In this document: positions 38,004 to 57,589 of the stretch, in pieces
Layout of the letters: every line of letters starts with the position of its first letter
Position numbering within the stretch: position 1 is the first letter of the stretch
Assembly: GCA_000697355.1 (NCBI GenBank)
Contig: JNEN01001244.1
Span: 1 to 64,000, forward strand
DNA: 64,000 bases
Reading direction: 5' to 3'
Source of the DNA: Syncephalastrum monosporum B8922
Taxonomy: Eukaryota > Mucoromycota > Mucoromycetes > Mucorales > Syncephalastraceae
Made by a program: the position numbers and the translations under genes
The notes under the pieces: generated by a model
The model's input: only the letters and a program-made list of their open reading frames with translations
What the model was told of the DNA's origin: nothing
The model's database searches: none

Positions 38004-38820
38004 ATGGCCGCCAAGAACCTTCCCAAAGTCTTTTTCGATGTCGCCGTCAATGGCCAGCCTAGCGGTCGTATGACCTTTAAGGTAGGCCAGTCGGGAGTAT
38101 AGGAGCGTTCATTCGCTTATGGGACATTGTAGCTTTTCGCCGACACGGTTCCCAAGACGGCCGAGAACTTCCGCGCTCTTTGCACGGGTGAGAAGGGTAT
38201 CGGTCAGGCCGGCAAGCCCCTCCACTACAAGGGCAGCAGCTTGTAAGCTTGCATAGCATGGGTCATATGTAAACATATTCTGATCTCCCTCTGACGCTAG
38301 CCACCGCATTATCCCCGGCTTCATGGCCCAGGGTGGAGGTAGATGACGAGCATTTTGATATCAAACACACCAAGGCTGACTCAGCTATTTGTAGACTTCA
38401 CCCTTGGCGATGGTCGTGGTGGCGAGTCTATCTATGGTCGCACCTTCCCCGAGTAAGTGAAGAAGCACGGCGTCAAGCGCACACACGATCTAATGGACCT
38501 GGATCATAGTGAGAACTTCACCCTGAAGCACACTGGCAAGGGTGTCCTTTCCATGGCCAACGCGGGTCCCGTAAGACGCTATGAAATGCATGAGTGATGA
38601 GAAGGGAGAAGGGCTCGCTAACACGCTCACCTAGAACACCAACGGCTCGCAGTTCTTCATCACCTTCGACGACACGCCCTGGTTGGACGGTGCCCACACC
38701 GTCTTTGGCCAGATCTCGGAGGGTCAGGAGCTCCTCAAGCTTCTCGAGCAGAACGGCACCCGCTCTGGTGCTCCCCTTGCCAAGATCGACATTGTCGACT
38801 GTGGCGAGCTCAAGGAGTAG
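38004..38820 (+). CDS. Cyclophilin A-type peptidyl-prolyl isomerase
   Basis: Cytosolic prolyl isomerase and cyclosporin target. Six exons: 38004-38081, 38133-38242, 38301-38338, 38395-38452, 38510-38570, 38635-38820; 531 nt, 176 residues. Typical blocks are [50 protein letters not shown] and [11 protein letters not shown]. The active-site Arg (HRIIP), the QFFIT stretch and the ligand-binding Trp (TPWLDG) are all present. There is no signal peptide, so it is cytosolic. Five introns in a 531-nt gene make it unusually intron-dense. Confidence 0.97.
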
Positions 38821-39112: not shown

Positions 39113-41211
39113 ATGGTCCTCGCCCCCAAATCAACCAACACAAAGATCCACGCCTTCTTCCCCAGCAGTCAACCCAACAGCAAGACTCGCGAACCCTCGT
39201 CCCAGTCGAATCGAGGCTTCTTTTCCACTCAGATCGACCCATCGTCTCAGAGTCAGAGCTCTCCTGAAGGCACCTATTCTTACAACGAGCTGCGGCGTCT
39301 CTCTCGTTTGCCCTTCATTAGCAGCAGCCAAGACATTGACGACGACGACGACGACTTTCAGCCGTCCCCTTTCCGCCGTCTACAGAGACAGCGCTCGTCT
39401 GAGAAAACAAAGGAGAAGGCGAAGGAAAAAGCCAAAGCCAAAGCCAAAGCCAAGGCAGTCGCTCCATCCTCGAGTGCCAGCAACGCATCTCAGCCATCGA
39501 CTTCTTCCACAAAGCAAAAGACACCTCCCAAGCGCACGCGCAGACAGCCATCCGCCGCAACGCAGTCCACGGCTCAGTCTCCTGTCATCAAAAAAGAAAG
39601 ACAAGCGACCCCCGCAGAAGACCAGCAGTTCGTGTTTGAAGATTTATCCAGCATGATCAAGAAAGAGCGTGGCGCCCAGCCGCCGGGAGACGACGACATT
39701 GCGCTTGAGTTTGATGATATCAGCGATCTGATAAAGAAAGAAAAAGGAGGCGTCCAGCCCAAAGAAGAAGAAGACGCGTTCACCTTTGACGGGGATGACT
39801 TATCGAACCTGATCAAAAAGGAACGCACATCAACACAGCAGAACGAGCCCGAGAACGACGACGCCATCGAATGGGATGATCTCAGCAGCCTGATCAAGGA
39901 GGAGAGAAAGCGACCACGCGTACAGCAACAACAGGAAAGACAAGACGACGTGGATGCGAGGGCTCTCCTTGACGATATATACGATCGCCCATCGTCTGCG
40001 TCTCACACCGATCGACGACACTCTCCCCAAGTATTTACACCCACCCCCAGCCCACCCCCTGCGCAGCGCCGACGTCTGGCTTCGCCCATTTCTCTCGCTG
40101 ATTCTTCTGAGCTGGCCCATACGAGAGCGCGCCGCGCCTCGCTCATTCAGCACCAGCCTCGAAGGTCCCCACCCAGATTTCCAGGTCCTGATGTACGCCC
40201 TCAGGTCCCACGATCACAACGACAGCAGGATTCATCACAACACCAACAACAACGATCTACGCTTGATACCCTTTTTATACCAAGAAGCTCTCGAAACACG
40301 CGACCTCATGAGGTAGACCTATATCTACAATTATCTATTTCTTTTTGCTGCAGGAAGCTCATACGGATCACGCATAGAGAGGAAGTCAAGAAACCACGCC
40401 TTGCCCGCTCTGTCAACAGGACTTCCCGACCGACACAATCGAAGCACATGCCTCAGACTGCAAGGGCCTTGTTGCACCGACCGCGAGAAGTTCCTCCATG
40501 GCGAGCACCAGCGCATCTGCGCCTGAAGAATGCCCTGTCTGTGGAGAGTACATACCCGCGGCTGAGCTGGAGCGTCATGTCAACGAGGAGCTCGAAGCAA
40601 ACGAGCAGGCCGCAGCGTACGAGGCAGGACCCTCTGGGACAAGTTACCCAAGCTTCTCCTCTTCGATCGCAGACACGTCCCACATTCACAGCAACAGCAA
40701 CACGAATGATGATGCGAGTGGTATCGAATCAGACTCGGACTGCAGCTTATTGGACCTGACAGCAGAGCAGAGTCAGACCCACTCGGTGGCCGACCCTGGT
40801 TTCCCAACCCCAAGCGCAAGTGCAGACGAGCCCGAGACGGTCGAGCTCGTCAGTGAGGGCGAGGGCGAAGGGGACGCTACCGGTCCCGTGGATGGCTTTG
40901 AGAGCATCCTCGGTCAGCGAGAAAACCCAGACCTGCAAGTCTACTTTAATCAGCTTGATCCGGACCGACGCAACGCGCGGAGCACACGAGGCCGTGGCAA
41001 CAGCGCCGCACGCGGAGGTTCAAGCAGTCGAAGCAGTAATCCGGGTCGAAGCAGCGGGAACGGCTCCGGTCGAGGAAGTTCAAGCCGCTACGACGCGTAC
41101 GGGCGTCCGAAATGGTACTTTAAAAAGAAAAAGTCGGCAAGAGGTTCAAGGTCGACGGGTGGCAGCAAGGGAAGCAAGAGCAAAGGAAAAGGCAGAGGCA
41201 AGGGCAAGTAA
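39113..41211 (+). CDS. PIP-box, repeated SUMO-site motif and Rad18-type zinc-finger protein
   Basis: Two exons: 39113-40312 and 40378-41211; 2034 nt, 677 residues. The N-terminus has a PCNA-box-like NTKIHAFF (residues 9-16). Five psi-K-x-E motifs follow (VIKKE, MIKKE, LIKKE twice, LIKEE; the Ile residues are at 159, 182, 207, 234 and 261). The last four are each preceded by an acidic DLS/DIS segment. Exon 2 opens with a Rad18/UBZ4-type finger CPLCQQDFPTDTIEAH...C (Cys409, Cys412, His424, Cys428) and a second CPVCGEYIPAAELERH in which Glu471 stands at the fourth ligand place. The end is Gly/Ser/Arg-rich with YGRPKWYFKKKK. PIP plus UBZ suggests binding of ubiquitinated PCNA at DNA damage; I do not recognise an exact family. 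The acceptor at 40375-40377 is required, because an earlier AG gives a stop. Confidence 0.7.
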
Positions 41212-51045: not shown

Positions 51046-51809
51046 GCCTGCCAAACAACCCGATATATAATGGAGAAGAAAAGAGAGGAAAAGGTGTATG
51101 CTGGATTTTTATTTCCTCGGCGTAGCACGAATATCAATCTACTGGGCGCTTCCCGCTTGGGCGTTTTGGATTTCTCGCGTTTTATACGTCGCGTTCTGGC
51201 ATTTATTAGCTTCGCGCTACCGCACTTTATGCAAATGCAACGGAGGTTGGAGTGAGGCAGTGATCACATCAGGACACAATACTGTGTCTTTCCGGCTGTC
51301 TTCAACGGGCACCCCACTGGAAGCTTGGGTATGCGTAACTGTATGGCGAAGACACTTGCTGGAGCCTGAGTAACATTACCTGGCCCCCACAGGCGCGAGT
51401 GGCGGCTGGTATCCTAGAGCCATGACAGAGTGCACATCCACGCTATGTGCTTCATGACACACCTTTTACTCGGGCTCAGGTTATGGCCACAGCAACTTCC
51501 ACTGATGGCCGGCATGAAACCCAAGGATCCGTTATGCGAATTTTATCTTTTATTATTGGGCCCCAAATTGGCCCTCATTCTTTGGTCCCAGTCCCCGCCC
51601 CGCTCTGCACACTGTGCATCCTAAATCACTGAGTTCCAGTTCGCATCACTCTAGTAAGAAAAAAACCTCTCCTCTCTTTTATTTCACTACACCTGACTTC
51701 GTGTGTGTGTGCGTGTGTGTGTGTGTGTCGTGCTTTGTAAGGACCCTACGCGTCGTGAAGTAGCTTTGCACTGACCTTTGGACACATAGCGCCTCTTGTA
51801 TATGCCGCC
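51046..51809. other. Divergent intergenic region between MIOS and ZW10
   Basis: About 760 bp between two start codons; no gene seen. A (GT)n run lies at about 51701-51728, some 80 bp before the ZW10 start. Confidence 0.6.
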
Positions 51810-54800
51810 ATGACCACTGCCCACAGCATCAGCGAGGTTCTCAGCAAAGACCACGACCTCAGCGTTCTGAACGAGGGTGGCATCGACACCCTGACTTCGA
51901 CCCTGCACAAATTGGAGGAGTCCCTCGCCAATGTCAAAAAAGACCTGTTTTCGACCGTGCATACCAATCTCGACGCCTTCATCACCTCGTACGACGGACA
52001 CCCTATCCACGATCGCGTCATTCGCATTGCCCAAGGCTCGTCGGACTCGACCGCGCTTGACGCCCTGCATCAATTCCACCAGCTACGCCACGAAGCACAG
52101 ATCAATGACCAGCAGATTGCCGCATTGCGCGTCCTGGACGGCCTTGTCGAAGCGATCGAAGCAGCCGAACGCAGCCTCGACGCCGCCGACGAGACGACGC
52201 TGCTGTCGCAAACAACGCGCGACCTACTCGATGTGAAGACGCGTGTCCAGGCGCTCCAAAGCGACACGCACGTCTGGCCCTTGGTACAGGCACTCGCAAT
52301 TCTCGAAGCGCGACACCAGGCTGCCCTCGCACGCCTCACGACGCACTGCCAGGAGACGTTTGGTGCGGCGGTGGTGGTGACCGAGTCCAGCCTGACCGTG
52401 CAAAGCGTGCCTTTTGCGGATATCATGCAGTCGCTGTCGCAGCTCGGCCTGCTCGCAGCCACACTGGCTGACCTCACGAAGCGCATCACGCGCACGCTCC
52501 TGCCCGCCTTGTTCGACCGTCGCCGGCTCTCGACCCATGCGACGTCCGATCACGGCCGCACCACGTTGCAACTCGACGCTGCCTCCGAAGAGATGGACTG
52601 CCCGGCCCTCCTCGCCAGTCTAGGCACGCTGCTCACTTTCTTTGCCCAGCGCGTGTTTGCCGAAGCGACACCCGACGACCGTCGTCTGTTTGGCAACCTG
52701 CTCCTGCCCGACACGTTTGAGGCCGTGATCCACCGCGCGCTCGAGCCCGCCGTCCCCGCCACGCCCGCCGAGCTGCCCTCCTTTGACGCCACCGCTGTGG
52801 CTGCGTCCGCTCTCGAGGAGCAATGCGTGCAGTGCGGCTTCTGGGTGGACGAGGCCCGCCCCTTGACGGCCTACGTCGCCGACATGGACGCCCATTTTGG
52901 CAAAAAGCGGCGCAACAAGATTCTCTCGGAGGGCCGTCAAATCATGATGCGCCGGCTGTACGCGACCGAGGAAGAGCCCGCGCTCGGCAGGATCACCCAG
53001 ACCCCCAAGGTGCTCGTCCTCCTGCTGCAAGAGACTCTGGCGGAAGCCGACAGCCTGGCGACGACGCACCCCATCTCAGCGGCACAACTCGTCCAGGTCC
53101 TGCACGACCTGCTCGATCTCTACCGCGCGCTCATGCCCCACTTCCACCGCGACCACTTCCTGGCCGAGCCCGCCCACGGCCTCTGCTTCCGTAACGACTG
53201 CTACTGGCTCGCGCACGCTATCCAACGCCTGCCCAACCACCCGCCCGCCCTCGATCGGCAGGCTGAGCAGCTGCGCGTCCTCGGCGAATCCTGGTACGAC
53301 GTCGCGCTCACCCAGCAATTCGACACGCTCGAGCACATCCTGCGCGACACCGACCGCTTCATTGGCATCACCGAGCCGAGACGGCACGAGCAGTGCGACC
53401 GGGCGCTGATGCGCGTCGTCGAGCGTATCGGCGCCTACGCCATGGACAACCGCGACGTGGTCGAGCCGTCGCTGTACCTGGACCTGACGAGCCAGCTCGT
53501 CGACCGCGTCCTGACCCGGCTGATCGACGATGTCGAGCAGCTCGATGACATTGGCGCGGACGACTCGCACCTGATTGCGCGGAGCCTGAACAGCCTGGTT
53601 CAGCTCGTCGGCGTGTTCGACGTGCCCGGCCAGGACGCCACGGACGCGATCGTCGCCGACCTCGTCGACAGCTGGAAGAAGTTTTGGATGCTCAACACGA
53701 TCCTAGAGAGCGGGCTGCGCGACATTATGCAGCATTACCGCCACGGCGAGCTCTGGATGTTTGCGCAGCCGGAGCTCGTCAAGCTGGTGTGCGCCCTTTT
53801 CGCCGACACCGAGCTGCGCGCCGCGAGTATCCACGAGATCAATTCAACGCGACCGCCCAAGCGCGAGGCGCCCTTTGCATCGGCGTCAGGCCGCGGACCC
53901 GGACCCGAACGCGAACCCGAGCCGGAGCCGGAGCCGATGCCTCAGGACAGGGCGCCTGCCCAGCCCCGTTCATTCGCCGCCGCGCCGCCGCTCGCTGAAG
54001 ACGAGGCCGACGGCTGGAACTGGGACGACGATATGCAGGACACCCATGCGGAGCACACGCCTGTCAAATCCGCATCCTTACTAGCCGAGGCTCCGCCACT
54101 CGACGAGCATGAAACAGAGGGCTGGGCCTCGGACGAGGAGATGCCTCTCAGAGACTACTCAGACACTGCCAAGCCCGGGTCTGCGCTGGCAGAAGCACCG
54201 CCGCTTGACGAGCACGAAACAGCAGGCTGGGGATCAGACGACGACGCCCCTCTGTTCGATAGACAGCCATCCCACGTCAAAGAAGCATCGCGCAGACAGC
54301 CCTCTCCTATGGTGGAGGCGCCACCGCTAGATGACGGCGACGTCGAAGGTTGGGGATCGGAGGAAGAACTACAAGAGCCATCCAAACAAGCGGATCGCCC
54401 GGGTTCACCATTAGAGGCAGCAGCCCGGACAGAAAGCAACCCCAAACACCACCCTGAAACGCCCCAGCCCCGCCACACCACACCCTCGCTGGCAGAAGCA
54501 CCGCCTCTTGAGGATACAATGGAAGGCTGGGGCTCAGACACGGACATGCACGTGGATTCCCGCACCGATACCTCTCTCACTGATTCTGCTGTTCCTGCTG
54601 CTGCTATGACCGCGACTATGTCTCCATCGCACGCCGATGCACAAAAGGTCGATACAGCGCATAGCATCCGGTCATCCCCTGCCCTCGCAGAAGCGCCACC
54701 GCTGGACGATACGCTGGAAGGCTGGGGTTCCGACAACGACGGCATGCATGCGGAACTCCACCATGACAAGGACGAGGAGGAGGATACCTCTCGCGCGGCT

Positions 54801-55136
54801 GCTGTCACCTCTTCGTCGTCCGCGGACGCACACGCACAACCTGCCAGCCCCGCCCGGGCTTCTCCCTCTTCCCTGGCAGAAGCACCGCCGCTGGACGACA
54901 CAATGGAAGGCTGGGCCTCCGACATGGAAGAAGCTGCCCAAGGGCCCGCACAGACCCAATCCATTCAAACTCCCCATGTATCACAGGAAGCGAGACCTGC
55001 TCCCATCCACCCATCCTCACCACTCGCCTCACGTCACCCTCCCCAGCATGCACACGCGTCTTTGGAGAATGAGCATGATGATGAGGACGACGGCGGATGG
55101 GGCGACGCAGACGAGGATGTCGTGTTCAAATCATAA
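51810..55136 (+). CDS. ZW10/Dsl1-like tethering protein with acidic Trp repeat tail
   Basis: Intronless, 1108 residues. Residues 1 to about 690 are helical and match the ZW10 family: LSTLHKLEESLANVKKDLFS-type start, DILMQ-like FADIMQSLSQLGLL, EEQCVQCGFWVDEARPLTAY, FGKKRRNKILSEGRQIMM, CFRNDCYWLAHAIQRLPNH. ZW10/Dsl1 tethers COPI vesicles at the ER, and in animals also serves the kinetochore. Residues about 720-1055 hold seven copies of a unit like LAEAPPLDDTMEGWGSD (at about 722, 757, 792, 833, 893, 958, 1020), and the end GGWGDADEDVVF is a shorter eighth. The first copy has GWNWDDD. Yeast Dsl1 uses acidic Trp motifs to bind COPI delta-COP. GC-rich coding sequence without introns contrasts with its neighbours. 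Confidence 0.8.
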   Translation: MTTAHSISEVLSKDHDLSVLNEGGIDTLTSTLHKLEESLANVKKDLFSTVHTNLDAFITSYDGHPIHDRVIRIAQGSSDSTALDALHQFHQLRHEAQINDQQIAALRVLDGLVEAIEAAERSLDAADETTLLSQTTRDLLDVKTRVQALQSDTHVWPLVQALAILEARHQAALARLTTHCQETFGAAVVVTESSLTVQSVPFADIMQSLSQLGLLAATLADLTKRITRTLLPALFDRRRLSTHATSDHGRTTLQLDAASEEMDCPALLASLGTLLTFFAQRVFAEATPDDRRLFGNLLLPDTFEAVIHRALEPAVPATPAELPSFDATAVAASALEEQCVQCGFWVDEARPLTAYVADMDAHFGKKRRNKILSEGRQIMMRRLYATEEEPALGRITQTPKVLVLLLQETLAEADSLATTHPISAAQLVQVLHDLLDLYRALMPHFHRDHFLAEPAHGLCFRNDCYWLAHAIQRLPNHPPALDRQAEQLRVLGESWYDVALTQQFDTLEHILRDTDRFIGITEPRRHEQCDRALMRVVERIGAYAMDNRDVVEPSLYLDLTSQLVDRVLTRLIDDVEQLDDIGADDSHLIARSLNSLVQLVGVFDVPGQDATDAIVADLVDSWKKFWMLNTILESGLRDIMQHYRHGELWMFAQPELVKLVCALFADTELRAASIHEINSTRPPKREAPFASASGRGPGPEREPEPEPEPMPQDRAPAQPRSFAAAPPLAEDEADGWNWDDDMQDTHAEHTPVKSASLLAEAPPLDEHETEGWASDEEMPLRDYSDTAKPGSALAEAPPLDEHETAGWGSDDDAPLFDRQPSHVKEASRRQPSPMVEAPPLDDGDVEGWGSEEELQEPSKQADRPGSPLEAAARTESNPKHHPETPQPRHTTPSLAEAPPLEDTMEGWGSDTDMHVDSRTDTSLTDSAVPAAAMTATMSPSHADAQKVDTAHSIRSSPALAEAPPLDDTLEGWGSDNDGMHAELHHDKDEEEDTSRAAAVTSSSSADAHAQPASPARASPSSLAEAPPLDDTMEGWASDMEEAAQGPAQTQSIQTPHVSQEARPAPIHPSSPLASRHPPQHAHASLENEHDDEDDGGWGDADEDVVFKS
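53970..55110 (+). repeat. Coding tandem repeats, APPLxD..EGWGSD units
   Basis: Seven imperfect copies, about 35-65 codons apart, each with a conserved core of about 20 codons (AEAPPL, two or three acidic residues, EGW[GA]SD) and variable spacers. The codons of the cores vary, so these are old or selected repeats rather than a recent expansion. Confidence 0.85.
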
Positions 55137-56272
55137 CACGCTAATAATAAACAAAAAGACGGCACCCTAAAGATGCCCTTGAAGCACGCACGTGTGCATG
55201 CTGTTTCGGCTTCCCACCTGGTCATTGACAAGTGCTATGCCCATCCTTCAAGTTCCCACGCGCTGAGCAAAAAAAAAAAAAGAAAAAGTGTATACAAAAA
55301 TGAAAGGGAACGAGACACAAAACGAATATGGCTCTGCGGTTGCGGCACGATGCTGCCTTTTGTGACATTACCATTCATGATGATACAGCAATGCAGAAAT
55401 GAAAGGGTCGGAGCCGACGGAACGGGATGGAAGGACGGGGATCTGCGCTCATATTCATCATTGTGGGTGGCATGTGTGAAAAGTGTGTGTGGGTGATACG
55501 GCGGGCTGGAGCCGACCTGCGGATGCCCGAATAAGGGCACGTGTCTTGGGGTTCTACTCCACCAAACAATTCCATACACGTGCGAAGCCCGCTTATCGTG
55601 ATATGCTTAAAGAAAAAGAGAAATGCGACTACCCTATACCCTTGAGTGTATTACGTGTGTCCATACAAACAACGAGGTAATTTTTCTCGTTTGCTGGTTG
55701 GTAGGTTGGTTTATTTTTTCAGGCACTGCCGGTCTGTCTTTGGTTTCAGGTAGTGATGACCAGATCTGTCCCCGCTCCTGGACCAATCAAAACATTCATT
55801 TCTTTCCATTGTGAAAGGCGGGCCATTCAATGGACAGGAATATCAAAGCAGAACGGATGCCCGGAAGAGCAAGCTGTCGGTGTGCGTGCGTGTGTGTGTG
55901 TGTGTGTGTGAATGACTATTGTGGTGTGGAGCTGTCTGTGTGAAGGCATGTCATGCAAAGAGCCAGATAAATAACAATTGATAACCATACCATATGCGAT
56001 ACGTACACACCACATGTGGATGGTTTCATTTGGGTTCGGTGACAGATTTATCACTTTCCCGCGACGGCATCCAATCAAAATGGGTGAATGCGAGCACCCA
56101 CTTCCCATTTCGCTATTTTCCCCCCCCCCCTTTTTCACTGCCTTTTATTTCTCTTTATCTTCTGCTCCTTTCTCTTCATTTCTTCCTTCCTCTCTTTCTC
56201 TCTTCTTCCTCTTTTTTGTTTGATTTATTCTCTCTACAATTCACTGACCGTGTCAATTCATATGATTTATGT
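55137..56272. other. Intergenic, no recognised gene
   Basis: ZW10 3' UTR, a (GT)n run (55881-55910) and a strongly pyrimidine-rich stretch (56118-56220) before the kinase start. The pyrimidine tract stays open in the kinase frame, but as Leu/Phe/Ser translation only. Confidence 0.55.
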
Positions 56273-57589
56273 ATGAATGTTACGCCCATGATCCAAGACC
56301 ACACTGCACCACTGACACTGTTGCCCTTTACCCATAAAGTGGGTGGTCACGTTGCCATGTTCCGCCTTGCTCCGAATGGAGCCCTCTGCAAGGCCGTGAC
56401 AGCAACGAAAGAGCAGCTTTTTTATGAAGATCTGCAATTCCACCCTCAATTCCAAGCTTTTGTTCCACGCTACATGGGCGTTGTTCGCATTACCTACAAG
56501 CAGCACACGCCGAATCACTACCAACCCGAGGTGGCCTGGGCTCGCCAGGGTGCCTCTCTTCCCTCACCCACAGCAGCAATGACAACACCGCTTAAGCAGC
56601 CATTGTCTGCGATAGATGGCATCAGTAGCCCTACAGTACCTCTTTCGCTCTCGCTTCCGAACAGTCTGGCTACTGCGTCTCCTGCATCGGCTGTATCTGC
56701 CGGAATGGCAACCGGATCCAGATCAACGGATACCAAGCAACGTCACTATCACCCGTACCATCCGGCTCCGCCCCATGATCGCAAGCCTGCACCGTCATCC
56801 CAACCCCAGTCACCCACCCGCTACTACGCCCCGCAACAGCAGCAGGAATTCATTGTGATCGAAGACCTCACCGCCGGACTGAAGAAACCGTGCGTGCTCG
56901 ATCTCAAGATGGGCACGCGACAGCATGGTATCTACGCGACGTATGCGAAAAAGACGAGCCAGACAAAGAAGTGCGAGCAGTCGACGAGCGGTCGGCTGGG
57001 CGTGCGCGTGTGTGGCATGCAAGTGTACAAATCCTGGATGGGCACGTACTCGGTGCAGGACAAATATGCAGGTCGCAAGCTCACGCCGACGTCATTCAGA
57101 GACACCTTGTACGACTTTCTGCATGACGGCTCCCGCCTCTGGCGCCACCACATCCCGCCCCTCCTCGACAAACTCAAGCAGCTCGCGCTCCTCATCCAGA
57201 AGCTGCGGGGTTACCGCTTCTTTGGTTCCAGCCTGCTTCTCATCTATGACGGCCTCGATCCGTCCGTCCCCATCGATGTTCGTATCGTCGACTTTGCCCA
57301 CTGTGTTACCCAGCGTGAGATGCAGGAAAACCTCGCCGACATGACCTGTCCTCCCTCCCGTCCAGCCGAATGCGACCACGGATACCTTCTCGGTTTGGAC
57401 ACTCTCATCGATACCTTTGATCACATTTACACTTCCTCTGCTTCTTCGTCTTCTTCTTCTTCTCTTTCTGGGTCGAGTACCCTGACGGACTATCGCCTTT
57501 CATCTTCCCCTCGTACAGCATCACAGCATACCACCACCGTCACCGTCACCCCCGCTTCTTCAGAAAACTCGTCTTCTGTCTCGCATTGA
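56273..57589 (+). CDS. Inositol hexakisphosphate kinase (Kcs1/IP6K type)
   Basis: Makes inositol pyrophosphates from InsP6. One exon, 438 residues. The N-terminus reads TLLPFTHKVGGHVAMFRLAP and ALCKAVTATKEQLFYEDLQF. The family signature PxxxDxKxG is PCVLDLKMGTRQHG (Asp210, Lys212). SSSLLLIYDG-like GSSLLLIYDGLDP, RIVDFAHC (Asp340) and DHGYLLGLDTLID complete the kinase. A Pro/Ser/His-rich insert (about residues 100-195) and a Ser-rich tail are low complexity. The start ATG 56273 gives MNVTPMIQDHTAPLTLLPF; the second Met (MIQDH) is possible. A four-codon upstream ORF (56262-56276) overlaps the start codon. Confidence 0.93.
   Translation: MNVTPMIQDHTAPLTLLPFTHKVGGHVAMFRLAPNGALCKAVTATKEQLFYEDLQFHPQFQAFVPRYMGVVRITYKQHTPNHYQPEVAWARQGASLPSPTAAMTTPLKQPLSAIDGISSPTVPLSLSLPNSLATASPASAVSAGMATGSRSTDTKQRHYHPYHPAPPHDRKPAPSSQPQSPTRYYAPQQQQEFIVIEDLTAGLKKPCVLDLKMGTRQHGIYATYAKKTSQTKKCEQSTSGRLGVRVCGMQVYKSWMGTYSVQDKYAGRKLTPTSFRDTLYDFLHDGSRLWRHHIPPLLDKLKQLALLIQKLRGYRFFGSSLLLIYDGLDPSVPIDVRIVDFAHCVTQREMQENLADMTCPPSRPAECDHGYLLGLDTLIDTFDHIYTSSASSSSSSSLSGSSTLTDYRLSSSPRTASQHTTTVTVTPASSENSSSVSH

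Follow-up and report, generated by a model that had tools for sequence, protein, structure and literature searches.

Results

The gene and its setting

The window, which is the whole stretch of 64,000 nucleotides that was analysed, holds at positions 39113-41211 of the forward strand a gene of two exons that encodes a protein of 677 amino acids. This gene is real, and its coordinates are those given by the initial annotation, with a single 65-nt GT-AG intron lying inside them. Two choices for the intron were compatible in length, and 40313-40377 is the one whose removal gives a reading frame free of internal stops.

39113..40312, forward strand: exon 1, residues 1-400, aligned with the homologue from Syncephalastrum racemosum
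40313..40377, forward strand: intron of 65 nt, GT..AG; the homologue is continuous across the junction
40378..41211, forward strand: exon 2, residues 401-677 and the stop, as read from the sequence

Exon 1 is present in one copy according to a DNA search of the organism's own genome (27.5 Mb, 198 contigs). A search of plasmid DNA with the gene was empty, as expected for a fungal gene, and Rfam gave no match in the window. A cyclophilin gene (38004-38820; its start was read by eye and its C-terminal exon assigned by Pfam) ends about 290 bases upstream on the same strand. Positions 51759-57586 carry a ZW10/Dsl1-like open reading frame followed by one for an inositol polyphosphate kinase.

Homologue and conserved islands

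The only homologue that was found is BCR43DRAFT_493084 of S. racemosum (P0001 in our set), a protein of 680 amino acids that is named in UniRef as a UBZ4-type domain protein and is 64% identical by BLAST and 68% in the alignment. No further orthologue appeared, as searches with the whole protein (7,989 candidates), the fingers (101) and the repeat (164) each gave only this protein. The search method needs shared five-residue words, and the whole-protein search was probably crowded by low-complexity words; absence from other Mucorales thus cannot be concluded, and on these searches the protein is one found so far in two closely related moulds only. Searches within the own genome yielded one other weak match to the repeat (E 0.115) and two to the fingers (E 0.023 and 0.045), all of which were rejected as paralogues; they were read by eye as bZIP-like (L003), Pso2/SNM1A-like with a UBZ4 (L005) and RING-like (L006). 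The Pso2/SNM1A-like gene (contig C171, ~86.0-87.6 kb) has an N-terminal exon with two UIM-like motifs and a UBZ4, in which Asn replaces the Asp after the ligand His, as read by eye.

The features of the protein are as follows, with identities referring to the alignment of the two proteins.

39137..39160, forward strand: PIP-like octamer NTKIHAFF (residues 9-16), within 21/21 identical N-terminal residues
39278..39400, forward strand: conserved stretch 56-96 (NELRRLSRLPFISSSQDI..FQPSPFRRLQRQRSS), 38/48 alignment columns identical, 7 gap columns
39587..39598, forward strand: SUMO-type motif 1, IKKE (159-162), in SPVIKKE, VKKE in the homologue; without the acidic upstream half
39626..39670, forward strand: repeat R2, QFVFEDLSSMIKKER (172-186), 15/15 identical
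39701..39745, forward strand: repeat R3, ALEFDDISDLIKKEK (197-211), 12/15 identical; low-confidence helix 202-209
39779..39826, forward strand: repeat R4, FTFDGDDLSNLIKKER (223-238), 14/16 identical; low-confidence helix 229-236
39863..39907, forward strand: repeat R5, AIEWDDLSSLIKEER (251-265), 12/15 identical
40034..40096, forward strand: conserved stretch FTPTPSPPPAQRRRLASPISL (308-328), 20/21 identical
40163..40210, forward strand: conserved stretch RSPPRFPGPDVRPQVP (351-366), 15/16 identical
40253..40285, forward strand: putative second, degenerate PIP-like stretch RSTLDTLFIPR (381-391), QSTLDTLI in the homologue; 382-391 9/10 identical
40402..40461, forward strand: finger 1, C-x2-C-x11-H-x3-C (409-428), UBZ4/RAP80-like, in both proteins
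40531..40590, forward strand: finger 2, C-x2-C-x11-H-x3-E (452-471), UBZ-like, with Glu in place of the last ligand in both proteins
40729..40761, forward strand: putative SIM-like stretch SDSDCSLLDLT (518-528), LLDL in both proteins; 515-530 14/16 identical
40798..40848, forward strand: conserved stretch GFPTPSASADEPETVEL (541-557), 17/17 identical
40891..40983, forward strand: conserved stretch 572-602 (DGFESILGQ..NPDLQVYFNQLDPDRRNARS), 26/31 identical
41083..41133, forward strand: basic tail SRYDAYGRPKWYFKKKK (636-652), 12/17 identical

The PIP-like start, the repeats, the fingers (20/25 and 25/29 identical) and the SIM-like stretch stand out as islands of 80-100% identity, while 14 of the 16 linkers are at 21-55% (e.g., 2/9, 3/13, 7/18 and 3/14), a contrast that is flattered, as the borders between islands and linkers, like the composite pattern described below, were set after viewing the alignment. 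Two linkers are better kept, namely residues 97-156 (35/60) and the one that joins R3 to R4; the successive links from R2 to R5 are identical at 5/10, 7/11 and 3/13 positions. The base of this comparison is thin, with two proteins from one genus and little evolutionary depth. It should also be considered that five stretches (56-96, 308-328, 351-366, 541-557 and 572-602) show no recognised motif, yet are 79-100% conserved, like the fingers.

SUMO-type motifs and the composite repeat

Five psi-K-x-E motifs lie at Ile159, 182, 207, 234 and 261, at the intervals of 23, 25, 27 and 27 residues that the initial annotation had reported. Their number exceeds chance, as five such motifs occurred in none of 20,000 shuffles of the whole protein (mean 0.37), nor when residues 150-270 alone were shuffled 20,000 times (mean 0.31), and the other 20 of the 21 stop-to-stop open reading frames of at least 250 amino acids in the window have at most one each. 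The homologue has its sites at 164, 187, 211, 236 and 264, with Lys and Glu kept in all five motifs; the count and the two residues are thus conserved, although the exact spacing is not (23, 24, 25 and 28 in S. racemosum).

The acidic segment said to precede the last four motifs is indeed present, although the literal form proposed for it, F/W-x-[F/D]-D-[D/L]-[L/I]-S, matches none of the four. A pattern fitted after seeing the repeats, [FWLG][DE]D[LI][ST]x[LM]IK[KE]E[RK], matches all four in both proteins, and a slightly shorter form of it, found four times per protein, did not arise in 20,000 shuffles. As judged from the two aligned proteins, four of the SUMO-type sites sit in a longer, conserved, acidic and amphipathic unit of docking type, about 12 residues in length. 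A bare SUMO site would need IKKE only, as seen in motif 1 (SPVIKKE), which has no upstream half, whereas in the repeats this half is kept too. Since the conserved unit is longer than psi-K-x-E, the repeat calls for more than SUMO as its explanation. Pairs of repeats among R2-R5 use different codons at 3-7 of 8-9 shared residues, which rules out a recent tandem duplication and indicates that the repeats are old and maintained at the protein level.

By hydrophobic moment, R2-R4 rank in the top 0.9-3.4% of 11-mers and R5 in the top 7.9%, with motif 1 not among these. Three of the four repeats carry an aromatic residue. R4 has Gly at the first, mostly aromatic or hydrophobic position of the pattern. 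In a model of residues 1-400, built on a two-sequence alignment, the mean pLDDT is 47 and no residue of the 400 reaches 70; on this model, the protein looks largely disordered. Two of the four helices of the model fall on R3 and R4 and span the SUMO lysine, while R2 and R5 are non-helical. Hydrophobic moments and model together suggest, with low confidence, helical docking motifs.

The initial annotation had explained these features by a multi-SUMO scaffold that reads PCNA and ubiquitin, with a putative role in DNA-damage tolerance. In this model, the PIP box and the UBZ4 fingers would recognise ubiquitinated PCNA, and the acidic segments would do no more than tune SUMO transfer, as a hydrophobic-cluster or acidic context. 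Consistent with such a scaffold are the five strict motifs (five of five in both proteins), far above chance and with Lys and Glu kept in both species, their low-confidence, disordered-looking context in the model, motif 1, which has the SUMO core but no upstream half, and the SIM-like stretch; SUMO sites most often take the form [IVL]KxE (PMC3395311). The conserved unit, however, comprises about 12 residues, of which this model covers only four. We consider the multi-SUMO scaffold, the main rival of our preferred reading, rather unlikely. In the own genome, the Rad60-SLD model has 21 ubiquitin-fold matches, SUMO and ubiquitin taken together. It picked up head-to-tail arrays of ubiquitin folds, with units 228 bases apart, at C154:462335-464143 and C68:33430-34098, which are probably polyubiquitin genes.

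As the next rival, the protein could be a transcription or chromatin co-regulator with SUMO as the usual repressive mark, in which the repeats would be acidic-hydrophobic motifs for activation or for docking of coactivators (L-x-x-L-I with acidic surroundings). The acidic, amphipathic character of the repeats and their aromatic residues would suit such a role, which would nonetheless leave the invariant PIP-like N-terminus unexplained, and no DNA-binding domain scored above its curated cut-off. A co-regulator of this kind is unlikely.

Zinc fingers

The two fingers that had been described as of the ubiquitin-binding type are both present and kept in the homologue. The UBZ4 ligand set, C-x2-C-x11-H-x3-C, is complete in finger 1 of both proteins, while in finger 2 the last of the four zinc ligands is missing, with Glu471 in its place. 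The description of a Rad18-type finger holds for the ligand spacing at 409-428 and not for the nearest relative, as the best match of finger 1 in a profile search of the PDB is RAP80 (UIMC1; E 2.4e-5), with WRNIP1 also ahead of RAD18. The Pfam model zf-WRNIP1_ubi stays below its cut-off of 26.4 bits, with 24.3 bits for the own protein, 17.4 for the homologue and 22.3 for finger 1 of the homologue alone. For finger 2, the UBZs of RAD18 and Pol eta lead the structural alignment, in which the absence of a family from the list is not an exclusion; searched alone against the PDB, this finger has no significant relative (a lysine-biosynthesis protein comes first at E 0.013, with RAD18 at 0.079), and its weak RNF220, Di19 and PRP21-like matches in Pfam are all below cut-off. 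C2H2 DNA-binding fingers are not favoured, as no such model exceeded its cut-off and RAP80 and WRNIP1 lead for finger 1; further down the list of structural matches, however, there are C2H2 chains that bind DNA.

Of the Pro-Val beta loop that contacts ubiquitin in the WRNIP1/RAD18 group, both fingers keep the Pro and a hydrophobic residue. The helix Asp is replaced by Ser426 in finger 1 and Asn469 in finger 2; in WRNIP1, the corresponding Asp37 contacts Arg42 of ubiquitin (PMC4370504). Because the WRNIP1-type Asp is lost in both fingers, their reading of ubiquitin appears doubtful, although they may bind it in another mode, and this loss, together with the missing ligand of finger 2, also counts against the multi-SUMO scaffold described above.

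Finger 1 is identical to RAP80 509-532 at 14 of 24 positions (CPLCxQxFPxxxIExHAxxCxGL), which raises the possibility of a fungal RAP80 counterpart, with tandem zinc fingers and SUMO-linked recruitment to a BRCA1-A-like complex. RAP80 has a further C-x2-C-x11-H stretch of its own, 59 residues downstream, although the alignment there scores below zero, and the SIM-like stretch would also be in keeping with such a counterpart. A match of 24 residues is, however, insufficient for orthology. A whole-protein search of the PDB gave nothing below E 0.34, and in it the likeness to RAP80 did not extend past finger 1; one simple pattern found no UIM-like match in either protein, and UIM models were absent from the Pfam matches. 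To our knowledge, neither a PIP box nor repeats of this kind occur in RAP80, and the SIM of RAP80 lies at the opposite end of the protein from the SIM-like stretch seen here. We therefore regard a RAP80 counterpart as very improbable.

PCNA and RPA in the own genome

The N-terminal NTKIHAFF of the initial annotation is found at residues 9-16 and is kept in the homologue. Compared with Q-x-x-[ILMV]-x-x-[FYW]-[FYW], it agrees at three of four key positions, the first Gln being absent; this Gln is missing from 34% of a set of 77 collected PCNA motifs (PMC6881253). The own genome encodes PCNA (PCNA_N 3.4e-47).

The N-terminal domain of RPA1 is likewise encoded, matching Rep-A_N of Pfam at 1.7e-18 and human RPA70N at 1.3e-6, with its RYR aligned to the human RYR, which includes two groove arginines. 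The start of RPA1 (L029, C136:193020-193560) is split over four short exons. A six-frame search of the own genome with Rep-A_N gave nothing, with no positive control either, because the domain is split over exons; the joined exons do match. A 47-residue piece of RPA1 alone has no match in the PDB and one below cut-off in Pfam. By analogy, RPA70N should be considered a candidate partner for the repeats and not an identification.

Discussion

Proposed mechanism

Given the conserved clamp-binding-like start, the five SUMO-type sites, four of them within a repeated docking-like motif, and the two zinc knuckles that resemble ubiquitin fingers, the protein is probably a candidate platform for DNA repair assembly. 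The architecture and the conservation of islands can be read directly from the two proteins, and from these we infer every interaction that follows. Our preferred reading, to which we give a rough probability of 0.4 and which is thus tentative, is a nuclear adaptor, mostly disordered, that serves replication or repair, is anchored on PCNA and carries four tandem docking helices, each with a SUMO site. The N-terminal PIP-like box would tether the protein to PCNA, and the four acidic amphipathic units, [FWLG]-[DE]-D-[LI]-[ST]-x-[LM]-I-K-[KE]-E, would form short helices in the basic-hydrophobic groove of a partner, for which RPA70, with its N-terminal domain, is the first candidate. Each unit ends in a psi-K-x-E, which could be sumoylated. 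The tandem UBZ-like fingers would bind proteins, ubiquitin being a possible ligand of finger 1 and an unlikely one of finger 2. The SIM-like SLLDLT could retain partners that carry SUMO, or SUMO conjugates of the protein itself.

Several points speak against this reading of a PCNA-anchored adaptor. It is not obvious that the repeats, with their basic end KKE[RK], would suit a basic groove, R2 and R5 are not helical in the model, the PIP box is without its Gln, Gly takes the aromatic position in R4, and seven equally conserved stretches have no motif reading.

As a lysine within a bound helix would be hidden from Ubc9, docking and sumoylation may be alternative states of a switch. In the boldest form of this idea, which is speculative and in our opinion improbable, the protein would be a tandem SUMO-switchable docking array, in which each copy is either docked (helical, lysine hidden) or sumoylated (extended, docking blocked), and which, tethered to PCNA, would count up to four partners, such as RPA molecules, at a stalled fork. 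Should docking helix and SUMO site truly overlap, this would be a compact case of mutual exclusion between modification and contact, repeated four times in one chain, and this fungal lineage would have made its own clamp adaptor out of known short motifs. If they do not, what is known now is a conserved orphan protein of one genus. Fork scaffolds built of motifs change rapidly in evolution, and searches for domains easily overlook them.

Comparison with known systems

RAP80, the nearest relative of finger 1, has a SUMO-linked role (PMC8514019); the PIP-like start and the four docking repeats are extra in the Syncephalastrum protein. With the UBZ4 of WRNIP1 and RAD18, finger 1 shares the ligand spacing and the beta loop with Pro and a hydrophobic residue; it may also share the beta-beta-alpha fold, which is predicted for it, and Foldseek superposes the predicted finger on the WRNIP1 UBZ at 0.4-0.9 Å over 20-28 columns (three matches, E 0.09-0.43). 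The differences lie in Ser426 and Asn469 in place of the helix Asp, and in Glu471 in place of the last Cys of finger 2. RING and AAA have no Pfam match in the Syncephalastrum protein, with none for RING or SAP at E <= 10, and the finger region of the homologue reaches 20.2 bits against a cut-off of 175 for the rad18 model. Identity with RAD18 was thus rejected, and another gene, on C145, fits better, though its pieces are below cut-off: this Rad18-like gene has RING and C-terminal pieces, none over cut-off. A further gene of the own genome carries a WRNIP1-like finger.

The repeats recall the RPA70N-binding motifs of WRN, BLM, RAD9, ETAA1 and ATRIP in being acidic-hydrophobic and, in the model, short helices in a disordered chain. 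Such ligands are about 20 residues long and acidic-hydrophobic, with little shared sequence and with two in tandem in WRN (PMC10479964). The tandem copies described here recall those of WRN, and in R4 the residues are ordered F-x-x-D-D-[LI], as in RAD9 (F298, D301, D302, I303). The repeats differ, however, in ending in IKKE[RK], and the likeness is one of composition, with no shared consensus.

Adaptors that combine a PIP box with a UBZ4 include SPRTN, SNM1A and Pol kappa. The Syncephalastrum protein resembles these in pairing a clamp box with a UBZ4-like finger, and differs in having no enzymatic domain above cut-off and in its additional repeats and second finger. The literature on UBZ4, PIP, SUMO, RAP80 and Syncephalastrum DNA repair, represented in part by titles and the beginnings of abstracts, contained nothing on this protein, and the whole-protein, finger and repeat searches returned no other protein with this combination and composite repeat. 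All of the elements are known individually; on these searches, their combination and the composite repeat are peculiar to the two Syncephalastrum proteins.
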